DNA from: a virus
Strand: one strand, 5' to 3'
IMG/VR virus record: IMGVR_UViG_3300025057_000013
Coordinates: 1-43,489 of that record
Length of the DNA: 43,489 nucleotides
The position numbers were made by a program, and so were the translations under genes. Positions 16,706 to 32,897 of this stretch are shown here, piece by piece (the first letter of the stretch is position 1; each line of letters opens with the position of its first letter). Under the pieces are notes generated by a model that made no database searches, was not told the DNA's origin, and saw only the letters and a program-made list of their open reading frames with translations.

Positions 16706-17047
16706 ATGCATTCCGCTGCCGGATTTTTAGATTCTTTCGTTCAAGATGAGCTGAAGTGTCGTTGTCTTAGTGAAGAAGATTTCGGCCAACCTCTCGCTAA
16801 CGAAGAAAATGACGTACCATTGTATGACATGTACAACAGGGGTTTAGTCGCATGCGAGCAGGGACTCGAAAGGAATCCATTGAATCTCGAGGGAACACGG
16901 CCCGGAACGACTGGTTTAATCCCGTCGATGGAGGAGGGTTTAGCAATGGGAGCCTCTCCGAAACCGAAAGCACTGGTCCTGGAACTGGAGGAGCCGGACG
17001 AGGAGGAACTGATGCTTTCAGCAAAACGACGGGGCTTGATGCGCTAA
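16706..17047 (+). CDS. Unknown small acidic protein overlapping the DUF3310 gene
   Basis: ATG 16706 (a GTG lies directly before it) opens a 113-aa frame starting MHSAAGFLDSFVQDELKCRC, followed by acidic stretches (LELEEPDEEELML) and a basic end. It looks like real protein. Its last 196 nt are also used, in another frame, by the N-terminal part of the DUF3310 gene. No domain is recognised. Confidence 0.55.
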   Translation: MHSAAGFLDSFVQDELKCRCLSEEDFGQPLANEENDVPLYDMYNRGLVACEQGLERNPLNLEGTRPGTTGLIPSMEEGLAMGASPKPKALVLELEEPDEEELMLSAKRRGLMR

Positions 17048-17325
17048 GTGAATGCCCTGGTGGTGTGTGCCCAGTCCCCTGGGCCACCAAGGAAGAGCCT
17101 CCTGTGATTCAGGAAGACAAGGTCAATCATCCATCACACTATACGGATAGCGGTTCAATCGAATGCATCGAGGCAATTGAGGCTCAGCAAACTCTTGAGG
17201 AGTTTCGTGGTTACCTAAAAGGCAATTGCGCCAAGTATCTTTGGCGTTGTAATCTTAAAGGGAATCCGAAAGAGGATCTGCAAAAATGCGAGTGGTATTT
17301 AAAGAGGCTAATACAAACGTACTAA
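16852..17325 (+). CDS. DUF3310-domain protein with a swapped C-terminus
   Basis: In this 157-aa protein, residues 1-85 are Gly/Ser/Thr-rich and overlap the previous gene. From residue 90 on, VNHPSHYTDSGSIECIEAIE and GNCAKYLWRCNLKGN followed by a helix ending WYLKRLIQ match DUF3310, a small phage domain sometimes linked to nucleotide metabolism. AGGGG lies 9 nt before ATG 16852; GTG 17065 would be a shorter alternative. The last 25 residues seem to be a replacement: a second, better-fitting DUF3310 ending lies after the HNH gene at 17819-17920. Confidence 0.75.
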   Translation: MRAGTRKESIESRGNTARNDWFNPVDGGGFSNGSLSETESTGPGTGGAGRGGTDAFSKTTGLDALSECPGGVCPVPWATKEEPPVIQEDKVNHPSHYTDSGSIECIEAIEAQQTLEEFRGYLKGNCAKYLWRCNLKGNPKEDLQKCEWYLKRLIQTY

Positions 17326-17819
17326 CAACATTCAAGGAAACCTGGAAACCCCTGCCATCAGATTCTCGGTATGAAATCTCCGACTTAGGCAGGGTAAAAA
17401 ATAAAAAAACAAACAGAATCCTAAAAGGCTCGACGACTCCAACTGGATACAAGGTTTTAGTACTTAGCTACAAAAACAAGAAAAGTAAAGGAGTATATAT
17501 ACACAGAGAGGTAATGGCTGCCTTTGCTGGAGAATGTCCAGTTGGGTTACACGTTTCCCATCTAAATGGAAACAATGCAGACAACCGCCTTTCAAACCTT
17601 TGTTACGAAACGCCTCTTGAAAATATCAGGCGCAAAAAAGAACATGGTACACAGACAAGTGGTGAAAACCATGGAACTGCAAAGCTAAATTCTGTACAAG
17701 TTTCAGAAATTAGGAATAAACGAAAAAAGGGCTTTAAACTTCTTGAGCTTTCCAAGATGTATGGCGTATCGTTTCAACACATTTCTAGGATCTGCAATGG
17801 AGAAAACTGGGCCACCTAA
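17286..17819 (+). CDS. NUMOD4/HNH homing endonuclease
   Basis: This 177-aa protein has a NUMOD4-like start (TWKPLPSDSRYEISDLGRVK), an HNH core (VYIHREVMAAFAG, then HVSHLNGNNADNRLSNL) and a C-terminal DNA-binding HTH (LLELSKMYGVSFQHISRI). This is the classic layout of phage homing endonucleases related to those in group I introns. Base composition is A+T-rich against its surroundings. It begins 40 nt inside the DUF3310 gene and is followed by the displaced 3' end of that gene, so it is a recent insertion. Confidence 0.9.
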   Translation: MRVVFKEANTNVLTTFKETWKPLPSDSRYEISDLGRVKNKKTNRILKGSTTPTGYKVLVLSYKNKKSKGVYIHREVMAAFAGECPVGLHVSHLNGNNADNRLSNLCYETPLENIRRKKEHGTQTSGENHGTAKLNSVQVSEIRNKRKKGFKLLELSKMYGVSFQHISRICNGENWAT

Positions 17820-17920
17820 AGTGGCGTGAGCGCCATAAAGGCGGGACAGAATCACTGAAGAAGGCAAGGTGGTACCTGGATCGTCTTATTCAACTGGATA
17901 AAATACTTCAGAACGGCTGA
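17819..17920 (+). pseudogene. Orphaned 3' end of the DUF3310 gene
   Basis: In the frame starting at 17819 the sequence encodes K-W-R then ERHKGGTESLKKARWYLDRL and a tail ending LQNG, stopping at TGA 17918-17920. This is a textbook DUF3310 C-terminus. It joins perfectly to KYLWR of the upstream gene at a shared TGGCGT (17242-17247 and 17822-17827). It has no start of its own. Removing 580 bp between the two hexamers restores a 162-aa gene. It therefore marks the original 3' end displaced by the HNH insertion. Confidence 0.75.
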
Positions 17921-18207
17921 AGTTCATCGTCATCATCGTCGTCGTCATAACCACAGGCGGCTGCAAGTTCAGCTAATTCGAGATCGGTTGGATGATCCCA
18001 GTCGATCTCGATGTTCTCTGACGCCATGATGTCTTTGATGGCGTACCATTCCATCATGCGTTGGTGGTAGAGATTAAGAAGAGCAAAGCGCAGCTCCTCC
18101 CAGGTCATCTCCTCTGATTGCAACTCAGCTTTACGCATAGCGAATTGCAGTTCCAGGGGGAGCTCAAACTCTCTTGGCTCGCTTGAACGCTCCATTCCGC
18201 TCTGCAT
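17908..18207 (-). CDS. NblA-like (phycobilisome degradation) protein
   Basis: In this 99-aa protein, residues about 13-60 (FELPLELQFAMRKAELQ, then MTWEELRFALLNLYHQRMM) match the NblA helix-loop-helix pattern: LE-x-F-x-x-R, M-[ST]-x-E-[EQ], L-x-x-LY-x-x-M. NblA targets phycobilisomes for breakdown, and cyanophages are known to carry it. Beyond the usual 60 residues there is an acidic extension ending in seven aspartates, which is odd for the family. Start ATG 18207; ATG 18195 is possible. The call rests on pattern recognition and needs a profile search. Confidence 0.5.
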   Translation of the reverse strand: MQSGMERSSEPREFELPLELQFAMRKAELQSEEMTWEELRFALLNLYHQRMMEWYAIKDIMASENIEIDWDHPTDLELAELAAACGYDDDDDDDELQPF

Positions 18208-19843: not shown

Positions 19844-22698
19844 TAGCTAAATCCTTTGAAGAGGTTCGTGAATTCACCGAGGATTTTTTGACCAGACTTG
19901 GACTTGTAGTCCGTATCTTCATCGTCTTCAAATAGTGTAAAATAACTAGGCGTAGATTTGTCTTTTGTGGTAGTCGTCTTTGAATCCATCTTTTTATCAT
20001 CAAAGACACTCTCTATCGATACCAGGGCTTCAAACGGATCGGAACTAGAAAGGCCGGAGAACAAACTACTGGCTTGCAAACCCTTAGAAGCCTGGGTCAT
20101 AAGCTCCATCTCACCTCGATCTACGTCAGTCATAAACTCGTTATAGAACTCATCCTCACTACCCTGGAAGCCTGCGTTCTGAAAGATCTTATAAAGAGAA
20201 GAGGCATTCGGATCATCAATCGGAGCCTCGTCTTCTGGACGTTCAATGTAATCAACGCCTAAGCGCTCTTGTGTAGGGGTTAGCTTTTTCTCATTGAGGT
20301 ACTTAATCGATTCTCTGATTTGCCTGGCGGCACCTGTTTGAAAGGCTTCAATAATGTATTGCTTAACCTCTGCAATACCCATGTCTTTATCACTTAGGCC
20401 CAAGGTCTCAAGAAGCTTGTCCCATTCTTCTTTATGCCCTTCTGGACTAATACCCTCAAGAAGCTTGTCGGCATACTCTTCGGGAGTCACGAAATTTAAA
20501 AAAACAATGTCTCCGATTTTTAATTTTTCATCAGTAATTTCAGGTAAGATTTTACTGTCGATGTAATCTTCTGCATCTTTAAATGTGATTAAATCTTTGG
20601 CTGGATCAAATCCTTCAGCAGCTCCTTTCACTTGATAGTGCAATTTTGCAAATTGATTCTTATCGTTTAAATTAAGGCCATAATAATAAGCCCACTGATT
20701 CCAGGTCCAATCGGTCCCTTTTACTTTTTCTGTATCTCCTTTTGTTTTAGCTATGTCCCAATCTTCAGCTAGTTCTTGTTTTTGTCTTTCATATAACTCT
20801 ACTTTGGGATTATTTTCTACAAAATTGCCTTGTGGATTCCAGTAGAAATCAACATCAAAATTTAAAGCGGAAGTACTCTTGACACCATCCAAATAAGCTT
20901 TAGCTCTTACGTTTGCAATGTCACGCAATGAATCAAGAGCGCTCTGTGTTTGAAATACATTCTGTTCATTTTGTTTAACGTCCATGTAACTTACGAATTC
21001 GCTCATGGATCGCGAAGTATCGAAACGTGGTTTTAAATAACGATCGATATAATCTTGCGCAAACTCAACATCAATGCTATATGTTACATTTTCATCAAGT
21101 GGATCTACAACTTCAATACCATCCTCATAACGGGTCAATAACTGTTCATCAAACCATTTTTGCCAGTTGTAAATAGCATTACTACGGCTTGGTACACCAG
21201 TAGCGGCAAACAAGCTTTTCTCTAGACTTTCTTTCTGCTTTGTCGAATCGCCCACCCAACCGAAGATTCCGCCAACACCTGTGTCAGCAAGCAATGAGTT
21301 GGCAAGTGATTCATTCACGGTCATGACTTCATCGTAGCCTGGAAGACCAGAATAAAAATCAAACTGCTGTTCTTGAAGCTTAACCTTTTGTAGTTCCAGT
21401 GCTGCTTGTTTTAACGAGTCATTGGTTAACGCACCAAACATCTTTTGTTGTTCTTGCTCTTTTTCGCCGAGCACACTAGACAGTTTCCCTTCTAAAATCG
21501 TGGTTCCTTTTGACATCTTGATTTTATCCCTTAGTTTTTCAGGGATAAAATCAAGGGTTGGCACTGCTAATATGCCTGCGTCATATTCTTTTTTTTGGTA
21601 TGAGGGAAGCGAGTCATACCATTCTTTCAATACCTCTGGATCTTGTGCGTCTGCCCAATCTTTTAAATTATCGAAACGATCTGCTAAGCCAAGGACTTGA
21701 TCCCTGTAACTTTGATAGTCTGCATCAGTCAAATATTCTGTGTAATCTTCTGCTATTTTTGCAGTTTCTGCTGCGTTACCACGGTCTCCCGCTGCCTTGC
21801 CTTGAGTCGTGTAGTGCCAGTGCAAATATCCATCTCTTGTGTATCTTCCTGTAATGTCAAGATCAGGCAGATAGTATCCCCCTACATCGACAGAGGATTG
21901 AGCATTATTCCATTCACTCAATGCAGTGCTTCCGCCTGCTGTATTTAAACGGTAATAATCGGCATTAAAACCGCCAGTAGGAGGCTGAGCGCCTAATGTT
22001 TTGGCATCCCATGCATTAACCTTTGTTTTTTGATAGCCTGCAGAGATGGTATCAATACCATAGTTATTGACTAAATCGTTAAACTTGAGATCCCCTAAGG
22101 CGCTCTGCAGGCCTTCCATAAGACTTTTATAGCTTCCCGGCGAAGCATTGTTTACTGACTCGACTAAATTCTGATAAGAACGAAGAGCGCGTGCGCCAAT
22201 CGTATCGCTACTCGCGATGTAAACCGTGCCATCACTGGCTACCGATAACTTGGCTCCTGGGAGTATGCGATCTTCATAACGTCCATTATTGTCCCAATGA
22301 GCCCTGCCCCATTCGTCTTTTGTTTGTGAAGAGGTCCTGGGCAGCTCACGACCTTCTTTTTGACCATGGACACTCCAGTGTGATGCACCCCACTCTGCTT
22401 TTGTTTGTGAATAAGTACGTGGAAGTGTGCGCCCTTCACTTGATCCAGTGGAACTCCAGTGTGATGCACCCCAGTCCTTTCGGCTAATTCCTTGTGGTTT
22501 TATGTTTTTCTGCCAGTGATCTTCTAAATCCCAATTCGATAAAACATACGACCTGTAGTCTGGTGTACCTGAAGCGGCATAAGCTTGACTAAGATCACTC
22601 GAATTATTTACATACGCGTCATAGTCAGGCGTACCAGAATCGATATACGCATCAATAAGGTCACTATATGAATCGACGTAATCGGCGTAGATCCCCAT
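19843..22698 (-). CDS. Large repeat-containing protein, probably structural
   Basis: From ATG 22698 (overlapping the upstream TGA) this is a 951-aa protein. The N-terminus has two copies of an SDL-x2-AY-x2-SGTPDY-x2-YV repeat. Three copies follow of a 30-residue unit built on EWGASHWS-x3-G-x2-EGR-x-LPRT-x-SQT, resembling the HW-x2-G-x2-EGR repeats of some extracellular cyanobacterial proteins; a later copy begins near residue 290 (YLHWHYTTQGKAAGDRG). The rest is long, helical and acidic. No signal peptide or membrane segment. It may be a tail or internal virion protein; it is the largest protein in the window. Confidence 0.7.
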   Translation of the reverse strand: MGIYADYVDSYSDLIDAYIDSGTPDYDAYVNNSSDLSQAYAASGTPDYRSYVLSNWDLEDHWQKNIKPQGISRKDWGASHWSSTGSSEGRTLPRTYSQTKAEWGASHWSVHGQKEGRELPRTSSQTKDEWGRAHWDNNGRYEDRILPGAKLSVASDGTVYIASSDTIGARALRSYQNLVESVNNASPGSYKSLMEGLQSALGDLKFNDLVNNYGIDTISAGYQKTKVNAWDAKTLGAQPPTGGFNADYYRLNTAGGSTALSEWNNAQSSVDVGGYYLPDLDITGRYTRDGYLHWHYTTQGKAAGDRGNAAETAKIAEDYTEYLTDADYQSYRDQVLGLADRFDNLKDWADAQDPEVLKEWYDSLPSYQKKEYDAGILAVPTLDFIPEKLRDKIKMSKGTTILEGKLSSVLGEKEQEQQKMFGALTNDSLKQAALELQKVKLQEQQFDFYSGLPGYDEVMTVNESLANSLLADTGVGGIFGWVGDSTKQKESLEKSLFAATGVPSRSNAIYNWQKWFDEQLLTRYEDGIEVVDPLDENVTYSIDVEFAQDYIDRYLKPRFDTSRSMSEFVSYMDVKQNEQNVFQTQSALDSLRDIANVRAKAYLDGVKSTSALNFDVDFYWNPQGNFVENNPKVELYERQKQELAEDWDIAKTKGDTEKVKGTDWTWNQWAYYYGLNLNDKNQFAKLHYQVKGAAEGFDPAKDLITFKDAEDYIDSKILPEITDEKLKIGDIVFLNFVTPEEYADKLLEGISPEGHKEEWDKLLETLGLSDKDMGIAEVKQYIIEAFQTGAARQIRESIKYLNEKKLTPTQERLGVDYIERPEDEAPIDDPNASSLYKIFQNAGFQGSEDEFYNEFMTDVDRGEMELMTQASKGLQASSLFSGLSSSDPFEALVSIESVFDDKKMDSKTTTTKDKSTPSYFTLFEDDEDTDYKSKSGQKILGEFTNLFKGFS

Positions 22699-23036
22699 CA
22701 GCACTCACCAAAAATAAAAACAGACTCTTGTTTGATCCAGGCTTCAATCCTATCAAGAGTTTTGGTAGAAAAGAAATCTTGTTTTTCAAACCAGGTCCTC
22801 ATATCCTCTGATCCTTTATGGGCGTTACAGCGCCTGCAACAGGGAAGAAGATTATGCCGATTAGAAGAACCAGATTTAAACCTTGGTACGATGTGATCAA
22901 GACTTGTGGCGACATCTCCGCAATAGCCACACTTGTGGTCCCAGGCTTGGTATATACTCTCTCTAAAACGTTTCTTGGCAAGTTTTGGTGTTAATTCAAC
23001 TAGCAGGGCGAGGGGCTCGTGCTCGTTGCAAAACAT
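22698..23036 (-). CDS. HNH endonuclease (classical)
   Basis: This 112-aa protein starts at ATG 23036 (a TTG at 23045 adds three residues). It has the complete classical HNH motif: CGYCG, then SLDHIVPRFKSGSSNRHNLL, then CCRRCNAHKG. Proteins this short are usually free-standing homing or packaging-associated nucleases. It lies far from terminase, so a mobile passenger is more likely. Its stop overlaps the start of the large repeat gene (TGATG), so it does not break that reading frame. Confidence 0.85.
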   Translation of the reverse strand: MFCNEHEPLALLVELTPKLAKKRFRESIYQAWDHKCGYCGDVATSLDHIVPRFKSGSSNRHNLLPCCRRCNAHKGSEDMRTWFEKQDFFSTKTLDRIEAWIKQESVFIFGEC

Positions 23037-23171
23037 GCTTTTCAATTGCCGTTAATTCATTCTAAATTCTCCAAACAGTTACCGGACAAACTAAAGAGAT
23101 AAAGATATCCTGACAAATCTTGACAGATGATTTCTTTTGTGTACGGTGTATAAGTAGCTACTGCCAGCTCC

Positions 23172-27527: not shown

Positions 27528-28046
27528 TTAAGAACATTCTAAATCAAGACACGCAAACTCTCCGTAAAAGAGCTTTTTGGCATTCAAGGCTGCTTTTTTA
27601 GCTTCTTCTTCTGTTTTAAAATTTCCAACCGTAATTCGTTTACCTTCAAGCGTTACCCTAACTCTATATAATCCTGTGTCTTTTCTTTGTGAATAACCTG
27701 CAAATATTTGATTAACCGCATTCTGTGGACGTGTCGCAAGTCTTAAATTGTTCCAGGTATTGTCTTGAGCATTTCTGTTTTTATACTCAACAATAAACTC
27801 ACCGGGATCTTCTCGTGTCATCAAAACCCAAATGACACGACTTAAGTATAGATCTTTGTATTTATGCGTTATTGTCCACACTAAACGCTTATTGCGTTTC
27901 CTTAAATTCCCGACAGGCTTCCCTACTCGTTTGGCGTCTGAATTGCAGCGCATCCTTTTGAGTGTTACAATCCCTGTTTCTGGGTCATACTTGTAATATG
28001 CATCTAGCTCTTCGAAAGAAGGTAGTGGATCCCATTGGGAAACCAT
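27528..28046 (-). CDS. HNH endonuclease with AP2 DNA-binding domain
   Basis: ATG 28046 (MVSQWDPLPSFEELDAYY) gives 172 aa; the open frame runs further upstream but reads poorly there. Residues about 55-110 form the HNH_3-like part (YLSRVIWVLMTREDPGEF, then NTWNNLRLAT with NAVNQ). Residues about 118-165 form an AP2-type domain (GLYRVRVTLEGKRITVGNFK, TEEEAKKAAL). This fusion is typical of phage homing endonucleases. It is A+T-rich compared with the flanking structural genes and sits between two of them without disrupting either. Confidence 0.85.
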   Translation of the reverse strand: MVSQWDPLPSFEELDAYYKYDPETGIVTLKRMRCNSDAKRVGKPVGNLRKRNKRLVWTITHKYKDLYLSRVIWVLMTREDPGEFIVEYKNRNAQDNTWNNLRLATRPQNAVNQIFAGYSQRKDTGLYRVRVTLEGKRITVGNFKTEEEAKKAALNAKKLFYGEFACLDLECS

Positions 28047-28074
28047 GATGCCAGCAGCAAAAAGCAACTGTATA

Positions 28075-28536
28075 CTAGCGCCAAAGCTCGTGTAGGTACA
28101 GACGTGTACCCACTGAAACGTCGGCAGGTCCTGGAAGACTCTGGATAAACTCAGCACCAGAACGTTCGTAACGGTATCTGGCTTGAAACGGATCCTTGTA
28201 GTTGGGAACGTAAAGGATGTTAGCTAAACGGTTGGTTTCATAGAGATAAATCTCGTCCCAAACCTTGAGTGCCTCTTTGGCATTGCTGGATCGGATCGTA
28301 CGATCCACGTCACCAGCAATGCTTTCAAGGCGGGTAGAAGGTGAAGTAGCAACTTCAGTCTTCTTTTCGGCAGTGTCGCAGCGACCGATCTGAATAACGA
28401 TCTTGTCGTAGAAGTACGAATCAGGGACCGTGTTCATAGCTTCTTCAAGCCGCGCGAAGTCACCCGCCGGCACAGAAACCGTGAAGTAGCCCAGATGATA
28501 ACGGACCCTACTCTTATCGAAGTCGCTGAGTTGCAC
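28075..28536 (-). CDS. Unknown structural protein, possible connector/tail protein
   Basis: This 153-aa protein contains SRVRYHLGYFTVSVPAGDFA, a helical middle with STRLESIAGDVDRTIRSSNA, and SVGTRLYLHELWR at the C-terminus. Two segments look like head-tail connector subunits in size and helix content, but I do not recognise a family. No membrane segment. Placed between the M23 peptidase and the HNH-AP2 gene. Confidence 0.65.
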   Translation of the reverse strand: MQLSDFDKSRVRYHLGYFTVSVPAGDFARLEEAMNTVPDSYFYDKIVIQIGRCDTAEKKTEVATSPSTRLESIAGDVDRTIRSSNAKEALKVWDEIYLYETNRLANILYVPNYKDPFQARYRYERSGAEFIQSLPGPADVSVGTRLYLHELWR

Positions 28537-30626: not shown

Positions 30627-32897
30627 TCAAACAGTGCCGTCGTCAGACACGAAGCTATAAGCAGTGGTCACAAAGTCCTTGTTCAAGATCTCGAAGCCAG
30701 CGTACAGTTGCCAGATCAGGATGATGAAGCGGCTGAAGTCATCGTTGTTGTTGATGAGCACCTGGGCGTTCGGACCACCGATACCCACGCCGATCGACTG
30801 AGGACCGAAGAAATAACCCTGAGCCACTTCCTGAGAAGCATAGCTGGAACCACCATCAAAAGATGCGGTCACATTCTTGGTCGGGAAGTTGGTGGACTCG
30901 AAGAACTTCACGCCTTCGAACTGAACACCAGTCGGCATCACAGGCTCACCAGCCAGGAAGTAACCCTGACCAGCTTGGGGACCCATGTAGAAGCTGGCAT
31001 TGTTAGGCATCATGGGGTTACCCATGTACATGCCTTGACCAGGATTACCAGCGTAACGGGCGATCTCACGGAAGTCAGCATCACGACGCAGGTGCATCAT
31101 GAAGGTAGGATCGCAGATGCAACGATACAGACCATCAGCGAAGGTCGGAACGTTACGCTTGCGCAGATCCTTAACAATGGTCAGCAGGTCGGTCTTCACC
31201 TGGAACTGCTGAACTTCATTGCCGTACTCAGTGCCGGTGTAGGAAATACGACCTTGGGAATCCTTGGTCTTACCACCAGCAAAGTAGTAACCACCCTGGG
31301 AGGTAGAAGCAGCACCATTGGCTTCAGCTTTGGCGAGTTCGTCGATGAACACGCGGTCACGCCAACGGCGATAGTCGTCAAGCAGCGTCAGGCTACCGAT
31401 CGACTGGTGGAACATATTCAGGTTACCGGTGTCCAGCAGAAGACGCTGGGCGGTAATCAGGGTCTCACGCGCAATCTTGAAGGTCGAAGGCTGGGTCGGA
31501 TCACCCGGATCTGCAGGACCAGTGTACTCCTTAAGCACCACCAGGACTTTCTCCTTGGTGATGTTACGGCTGTTGGCGGTACCGATGGTTTGATCGGCAA
31601 TACGCTCACGGCTGTCCTTAGTACCAGGGGTACCCCAGAACTTATAGCGGTCTAACTGAACGGTTTGACCAGGCTGACGAGTGAAGTCGTGGACGACACG
31701 TGCTAGCATGTTCTCCATGCAGCTCCCTAGGTTTCTCATCCCTAGGGCACTGACTATATCTTGCTCCCAAAAATGACACTTTCTCAAGAAACAGTTGAAA
31801 ACTTTGCTTCTCGCATGTCAGATGTAGATGCGGCCAAAGAATTAGGAGTCTGTATGGTCACATTCTACAAAGCTAGAAAGCTGTTTGGCATCCCCTCGTA
31901 CTTCGAAACAACCGGAAAACGTAAAACCAAAACAGGAAAAATTTACTCGTTTATGGAATACAACGACCGATATTTTCAGTCTATTGATTCTCCTGATAAG
32001 GCATACTTTTTAGGTTTACTTGCTTCGGATGGGAACATAAGTCCTCGTTTAACAGCTGCACGTATTGCATTAAAAGCAGATGATGCAGATATCCTTGAAA
32101 AATTTAGATCTTTCTTGGGGGCAGGCGCACCTGCTTTGAAAGATAAGGTTCCAACGCTTAAAGGAATTAAAGGTAATCCCCAAAAGATTTTGGTGCTTAG
32201 CAGAAAAGTTTTAGTAAATGATTTGATGAAATTAGGTATAACCCCTAACAAATCACATACTCTAAAAATTAACTGCGGTCTCAAGGACTTTAAAAAGGAC
32301 TTTATCAGGGGCGTCTGGGACGGAGATGGATCAGTAACAGAACGAAGGTTTAAAGTAACCACTGCCTCTGAATGTTTTGCCTTTCAGCTTCAAGGCTGGA
32401 TAGAAGAAATAAGCGGGGTTATTCTTCCTGTTAAATCAGAAGTAACCAAAAACAATAAAAACTTGTTCCATCTTTCTGGTTACATTCGAGACGCAAATGC
32501 AATACATGCAATTTACGGAGATTCCAACCTTTATATCGAACGTAAGTTTAAAAACTATGTTCGTTATTGGGAGCCCCGGCGCTAATGGGTTTCATAATCC
32601 GTTCTGGATTGTATACCCTAGTCGATGAACCTTCTTCTTATTCCTAAGAAACTTGGCTGCTGATTGCCCCATAAGCTTGATCTTTTTAACCATTCACGCT
32701 TACTGTTACCAGTTACGTTGTAGGGACCAAACCTTAAGGTGAAGGGTTTCCAGCAATTCACCGGGTGTTCACTTTTTGATTACTCAAAAAGGCGGCTGTC
32801 AATCAACCGGTTCCACGGCCATTTCCGCGATGTATGCGGGATGAGGGCGGTATAGCTCTGCCCCTAAAATCTTAGGGAAATCATTGTCAATAAACAC
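30627..32897 (-). CDS. Major capsid protein, split by a group I intron
   Basis: The coding sequence is join(32897..32806, 31725..30627) on the minus strand, 396 aa. Exon 1 starts at GTG 32897, 9 nt after GGAGG, and encodes VFIDNDFPKILGAELYRPHP followed by AYIAEMAVEPV. Exon 2 continues with SCMENMLARVVHDFTRQPG and the body of an HK97-fold capsid protein of the N4-gp56 type: LRKRNVPTFADGLYRCICDP, a GE...GVQFEGVKFFESTNFP segment and a long C-terminal part. Joined, the exons stay in frame and total 1191 nt. Read without splicing, exon 2 has no proper start. Exact splice points could differ by one base without changing the protein. Confidence 0.88.
31726..32805 (-). ncRNA. Group I self-splicing intron in the major capsid gene
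   Basis: Minus-strand core elements appear in order. P is GAATTGCTGGAAACCC (about 32740-32760). Q is AATCAGCAGCCAAG (about 32651-32667), with TGCTG/CAGCA as P4. R is GTTCATCGACTAGGG (about 32612-32631). S is AAGATATAGTC (31752-31762), with GACTA/TAGTC as P7. P1 pairs exon CGGU with intron GCCG, placing a U-G pair at the 5' splice site. A terminal hairpin CCCTAGG...CCTAGGG forms P9. The intron ends in G. The P8 region, between R and S, holds an endonuclease gene on the opposite strand. Bases 32586-32805 carry only intron RNA core. Confidence 0.88.
31773..32585 (+). CDS. LAGLIDADG homing endonuclease, antisense within the intron
   Basis: From ATG 31773 this is a 270-aa protein with both dodecapeptide motifs: YFLGLLASDGNIS (acidic D86) and FIRGVWDGDGSV (acidic D185). 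The N-terminus has an HTH-like segment (DVDAAKELGVCMVTFYKARK). Two motifs in one chain indicate a monomeric enzyme that cuts a long site, presumably the intron-less capsid gene. The gene is A+T-rich and fills the loop between the intron R and S elements, but on the plus strand, opposite to capsid transcription. It thus needs a plus-strand promoter, probably within capsid exon 2. A TTG at 31761 could extend it by four residues. Confidence 0.92.
   Translation: MTLSQETVENFASRMSDVDAAKELGVCMVTFYKARKLFGIPSYFETTGKRKTKTGKIYSFMEYNDRYFQSIDSPDKAYFLGLLASDGNISPRLTAARIALKADDADILEKFRSFLGAGAPALKDKVPTLKGIKGNPQKILVLSRKVLVNDLMKLGITPNKSHTLKINCGLKDFKKDFIRGVWDGDGSVTERRFKVTTASECFAFQLQGWIEEISGVILPVKSEVTKNNKNLFHLSGYIRDANAIHAIYGDSNLYIERKFKNYVRYWEPRR

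Follow-up and report, generated by a model that had tools for sequence, protein, structure and literature searches.

How does a phage gene come to carry two 3' ends with a nuclease gene between them? This arrangement occurs in a freshwater cyanobacterial virus (IMG/VR record IMGVR_UViG_3300025057_000013), whose 43,489 nucleotides constitute the stretch of DNA analyzed here, referred to as the window. A first-pass annotation had proposed that an HNH gene invaded the DUF3310 gene, bringing a replacement 3' end and leaving the old one behind, and we found relatives in the empty, occupied and post-loss states of such an invasion. The locus contains the following features.

16852–17325, plus strand: hybrid DUF3310 gene (T7 gp1.7-like), an open reading frame composed of a native 5' part and an imported 3' end.
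17242–17247, plus strand: left-hand TGGCGT hexamer of the junction, spanning codons W-R; the alignment of empty-site relatives stops at 17247.
17248–17325, plus strand: imported, functional-looking DUF3310 3' end with its stop codon, assigned by identity to other ends.
17271–17276, plus strand: AGAGGA, a Shine-Dalgarno-like motif of the HNH gene, read from the sequence and lying within the imported end.
17286–17819, plus strand: HNH homing endonuclease gene (177 amino acids) with NUMOD4, HNH_3 and HTH domains.
17822–17827, plus strand: right copy of TGGCGT, where the native DUF3310 gene resumes; empty-site alignments restart at 17822 with a 6-bp overlap.
17822–17920, plus strand: relic of the native DUF3310 3' end, without a start codon, assigned by nearness to native ends and by Pfam and PHROG matches.
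17908–18207, minus strand: downstream neighbor gene with a weak NblA-like match, right-hand context common to the empty-site relatives.

The hybrid frame reads through KYLWR and then CNLKGNPKEDLQKCEWYLKRLIQTY*, a divergent ending of 27 codons, and its protein covers the whole Pfam DUF3310 profile (E=1e-17). The HNH frame begins inside this ending and overlaps the DUF3310 frame by 40 bp, with its ATG 9 nt from AGAGGA, which we infer to be its ribosome-binding site. The HNH protein matches HNH_3 (E=5e-11), NUMOD4 (E=9e-11) and HTH_3 (E=4e-5), all passing the Pfam cut-offs, and shares 35-39% identity with HNH endonucleases of phages across at least 90% of its length; it combines the nuclease domain and the modular DNA-binding motifs of phage NUMOD4/HNH_3 homing endonucleases. 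Beyond it, the frame from 17822 is open, lacks an in-frame start and reads WRERHKGGTESLKKARWYLDRLIQLDKILQNG*. The earlier description of this stretch as a second, start-less DUF3310 ending is borne out by matches to the family end in Pfam (E=0.009) and PHROG 236 (E=1e-7).

The window holds many further nuclease genes, with domain matches to Endonuclease_7 at 343-777, HNH_5/HNH at 22698-23045, HNH_3+AP2 at 27528-28157 and LAGLIDADG_3 at 31761-32585. The product of the minus-strand neighbor has an acidic tail, and its match to NblA (phycobilisome degradation), although sub-threshold, is in keeping with a cyanophage.

Five HNH-free IMG/VR relatives (L010, L017, L021, L027 and L030) carry the uninterrupted allele at the insertion site. 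In each, the DNA alignment ends at 17247 and restarts at 17822, and the two blocks overlap by 6 bp, the hexamer TGGCGT. As the overlap is exactly this hexamer in relatives without the HNH gene, the period of the insert is the 580-bp spacing of the two copies, and the repeat structure is not due to chance. Coordinates and sequence thus agree with the first-pass claim that both endings join at TGGCGT, and alignment to HNH-free relatives came out as it had anticipated. Another contig, L002, has the identical insert (100% identity over 10,216 bp). The isolate S-EIV1 was considered as an additional empty site and rejected: it is a genome relative, with a terminase 82% identical to the window's and neither HNH nor relic at its DUF3310 gene, but its DUF3310 allele is very different. 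The terminase of this Synechococcus phage (L355:24081-26621) is interrupted by ~330 residues whose ends are intein-like (CLVGDTMV...NGFNVLN-C); the window's terminase (80-85% identical) lacks this insert.

We compared the two endings with those of relatives. The relic is nearer than the imported end to every one of 69 native endings (median 81% versus 48% amino acid identity), and the endings of the empty-site relatives resemble the relic, at up to 88% nucleotide identity (L010); the upstream end therefore arrived with the insert. In the pairs tested, the imported end shows 52-56% nucleotide identity to the relic and native ends. These comparisons indicate that the downstream ending is native and the upstream ending imported, placing a foreign in-frame 3' end 5' of the endonuclease gene and the duplicated native end 3' of it. 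Between the window and the related locus L003, the imported end is 86% identical in nucleotides and 26/27 in amino acids, with mostly synonymous changes (pS 0.68, pN 0.015). Because of this conservation, and because the hybrid covers the whole Pfam domain, the substitution pattern identifies the upstream end as a genuine coding end. The relic also shows a coding-like pattern between the same loci (pN 0.09, pS 0.63), which counts against our best reading; recent, perhaps separate insertions could account for it, and the relic may retain residual function.

A profile search of DUF3310 3' ends recovered relic endings at 10 of 250 distinct loci. An HNH gene or relic accompanies 10/53 divergent ends versus 0/69 native endings (Fisher p=1e-4, indicative only, as the loci are related). 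The remaining 43 loci of this virus group have varied 3' ends with no visible HNH or relic, so some divergent ends need no endonuclease. At L220:2501-2716 and L219-type loci, where HNH and relic are both absent, an alternative first half (WRWKNKGG/WRWRHKGG) is joined to a native-type tail (EAQNG); these mixed endings are possibly recombinants between duplicated ends.

Several relatives appear to have lost the endonuclease. L003 and L004 contain an upstream end like the window's, followed by the opening codons of the HNH gene (MRMVPKEADSNVLTVSKETW), its final bases and the relic; the middle of the HNH gene is missing, and its termini are fused through an AAACYTGG-like repeat. Judged from this fusion, the middle was deleted between short repeats, as expected once the endonuclease is lost. 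A trio from another HNH family shows all three states in flanks that are 90-97% identical: L073 is empty, L012 has the HNH gene, a new end and a relic, and L013 is the same without the 553-bp HNH. L005 is the scar of an L007-type HNH, and in a different virus group L081 (with HNH) and L054 (without) have flanks 97-98% identical. The first-pass annotation had held that related phages with both endings and no HNH gene would speak against invasion. Such loci do exist (L003/L004, L005/L006 and L013), but at least L003 and L005 are HNH losses and not counter-examples, because L003 keeps the fused HNH termini and the 5' start of an L007-type HNH survives in L005. Beyond the identical L002 and the L003/L004 scar, we found the HNH family of the window at no other DUF3310 end; searches with the window HNH returned only the identical contig among viral contigs and nothing from bacterial genomes, and a DNA search of the window region against named phages gave no match.

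Within this virus group, four HNH families occupy the DUF3310 end.

Family 1, the window's: relic left; junction at W-R.
Family 2, AP2-type (L009, L012, L014, L094-L097): own replacement end plus relic; junction at QWYL.
Family 3, L007/L360 type (L007, scar L005): own replacement end plus relic; junction at or just before KYVWR.
Family 4, Endonuclease_7 type (L239, L273): native end replaced almost entirely.

In L239, L273 and L360 the replacement reaches the last codons of the native end. An L007-type HNH lies at the same place in L058, where it is 69% identical to that of L007 and the flanks are unrelated. The same gene end is occupied in KP34-like and other T7-like phages, including the Klebsiella phages KP1-1 and KP34, in which the HNH start overlaps the stop of DUF3310 (gene 1.7-like); these enzymes are homologous to the L007/L058 family (~40% identity), differ in family from the window's and are accompanied by no relic. 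Among named phages, the nearest relatives of the L007-type HNH overlap DUF3310 genes in EFA-2 and Ou2. On either side of the HNH, EFA-2 and Escherichia phage Bas102 share 97% and 93% identity, but the HNH body is absent from Bas102. Only the HNH tail is kept there, the last residues SYENKDHLKHST forming the C-terminus of gp1.7; comparison with the intact HNH of EFA-2 (L113:2501-2764 vs L438:2290-2956) shows that a deletion scar is translated here, giving gp1.7 its new C-terminus.

The nuclease genes are found on one side of DUF3310. Its downstream same-strand neighbors (n=54) include 8 HNH_3, 8 NinG-like and 2 Endonuclease_7 genes along with other HNH-type nucleases; among its upstream same-strand neighbors there are no HNH_3 or NinG-type genes, and homing-type genes are limited to two of Endonuclease_7. 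HNH dN/dS of about 0.08-0.12 (pairs L095/L097, L239/L273 and L009/L094) indicates that the HNH genes are kept by purifying selection. We see an even chance that the 3' end of DUF3310 (gp1.7-like) genes is a widespread phage homing hotspot, at which unrelated HNH families would have independently evolved the strategy of placing the endonuclease start within the end of the host gene, whereby the enzyme and a target-recoded functional end are inherited as a unit; repeated gain and loss would then diversify the C-terminus, sometimes leaving endonuclease codons behind as in Bas102.

Comparison across these loci shows sites that are empty, occupied or past the loss of the endonuclease, a duplicated hexamer, the origin of each end and repeated invasion by unrelated HNH families. 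On this evidence, the segment is very probably a free-standing HNH homing-endonuclease element that invaded the DUF3310 3' end. It is best read as a replacement host-gene 3' end with a stop codon plus an overlapping HNH gene whose start and ribosome-binding site lie inside that end; as the start codon sits in the host gene's end, the HNH gene would move only together with the replacement. The first-pass proposal of homing with co-conversion stands insofar as the imported end came with the HNH gene, but an ordinary co-conversion tract would leave no duplicate. For this reason, and because the HNH start and AGAGGA are inside it, the imported end is better read as part of the element.

In the mechanism we propose, the endonuclease would cut or nick a DUF3310 gene that lacks the element, near the conserved KYLWR/ER junction. 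By way of the conserved coding sequence upstream, the broken end would invade a copy that carries the element and would copy the replacement end and the HNH gene. The element would then be joined to the other side of the break, with the native 3' end staying downstream as an untranslated relic. The hybrid gene would encode a full, presumably functional DUF3310 protein, and with the intact target gone its recoded sequence would protect it from the endonuclease; later decay or deletion of the HNH would leave a hybrid gene and a scar. The relic would be the product of the first invasion, repaired on the left through the DUF3310 core and joined on the right at the cut point, and thereafter ordinary two-sided homing would spread the whole arrangement.

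Could the HNH segment instead be spliced out of the mRNA, as a small intron or an element of another kind, so that the hexamers join and the native protein is made, with the upstream ending incidental? The exact repetition of the hexamer and the open, fairly conserved relic frame would fit. However, Rfam intron families gave no match even at E=5 and no conserved intron RNA core was found, in line with the first-pass view that no intron is involved; the HNH frame takes up all but ~40 bases of the insert, and the insert encodes a conserved DUF3310 C-terminus and stop codon. Moreover, splicing could not simply restore the gene in L005, whose relic has a premature stop, or in L009-L097, whose relics lack the first half. 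We consider splicing very improbable. An intein was also rejected: the insert is not in frame, with a stop codon at 17323-17325 and the HNH in another frame.

Similarly remote is a history in which the DUF3310 3' end was duplicated in tandem, an HNH gene then inserted between the two copies and the copies diverged. It would explain an HNH gene flanked by two homologous ends, but the upstream end shares just 53% identity with the relic and is similar to ends found alongside other HNH genes, and we found no locus with two similar ends lacking other signs of the element. Somewhat less improbable, though still unlikely, is that illegitimate crossing-over during ordinary allelic recombination imported a foreign DUF3310 3' end jointly with the adjoining HNH gene, the nuclease itself being uninvolved. 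DUF3310 ends in this virus group vary even without an HNH gene, and mosaicism is frequent among phages. Against this history, several unrelated HNH families have struck the same gene end with duplication of native ends, HNH-type genes lie on the 3' and not the 5' side, and the L012/L013 and L081/L054 pairs differ in the presence or absence of the element alone. Invasion by a homing element thus remains our preferred reading.

There are close parallels in fungal mitochondria, in which mobile ORFs with duplicated C-termini have been described in Allomyces atp6 and in Glomus atp6, atp9, cox2 and nad3 (PMC3630166). There too, an endonuclease gene inserted near a gene's 3' end brings a foreign in-frame C-terminus, and the native C-terminus persists downstream, sometimes without being transcribed; the imported ends have diverged more, and native ends group with close relatives (PMC3630166). 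The fungal elements encode LAGLIDADG or GIY-YIG enzymes in organelles, whereas those described here encode HNH enzymes in phages. Unlike the fungal elements, the endonuclease frame here overlaps the imported end, several families repeatedly invade one gene, and scars of loss are seen. Free-standing endonucleases of T-even phages, including SegF, SegG and MobE, offer another comparison: the cited part of a review treats intronless homing, ORF overlaps and gene splitting (PMC2988022). Like our element, they are intron-free, often overlap the upstream ORF and spread by cutting a neighboring conserved gene, with co-conversion, but they sit between genes or split them, as Aeh1 mobE does in nrdA; that part of the review describes no endonuclease with a replacement gene end and a relic (PMC2988022). 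Likewise, a survey from 2023 that dealt with nuclease genes at the boundaries of exchange does not mention DUF3310, and its cited part describes no such layout (PMC10448857). We found no phage description of a C-terminus-replacing layout in open-access papers, although an earlier account is possible.

Together our results are best read as showing that a layout known from the mobile ORFs of fungal mitochondrial atp6 and cox2 now appears in phages. A selfish endonuclease can occupy a gene with neither an intron nor an intein, and without destroying that gene, by supplying the missing end. With empty, occupied and scarred phage sites, several endonuclease families and cultured T7-like examples, target recoding, one-sided repair and loss become testable. 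The 3' ends of phage genes beside endonuclease genes may differ in history from the remainder of the gene, and should be interpreted with this in mind.
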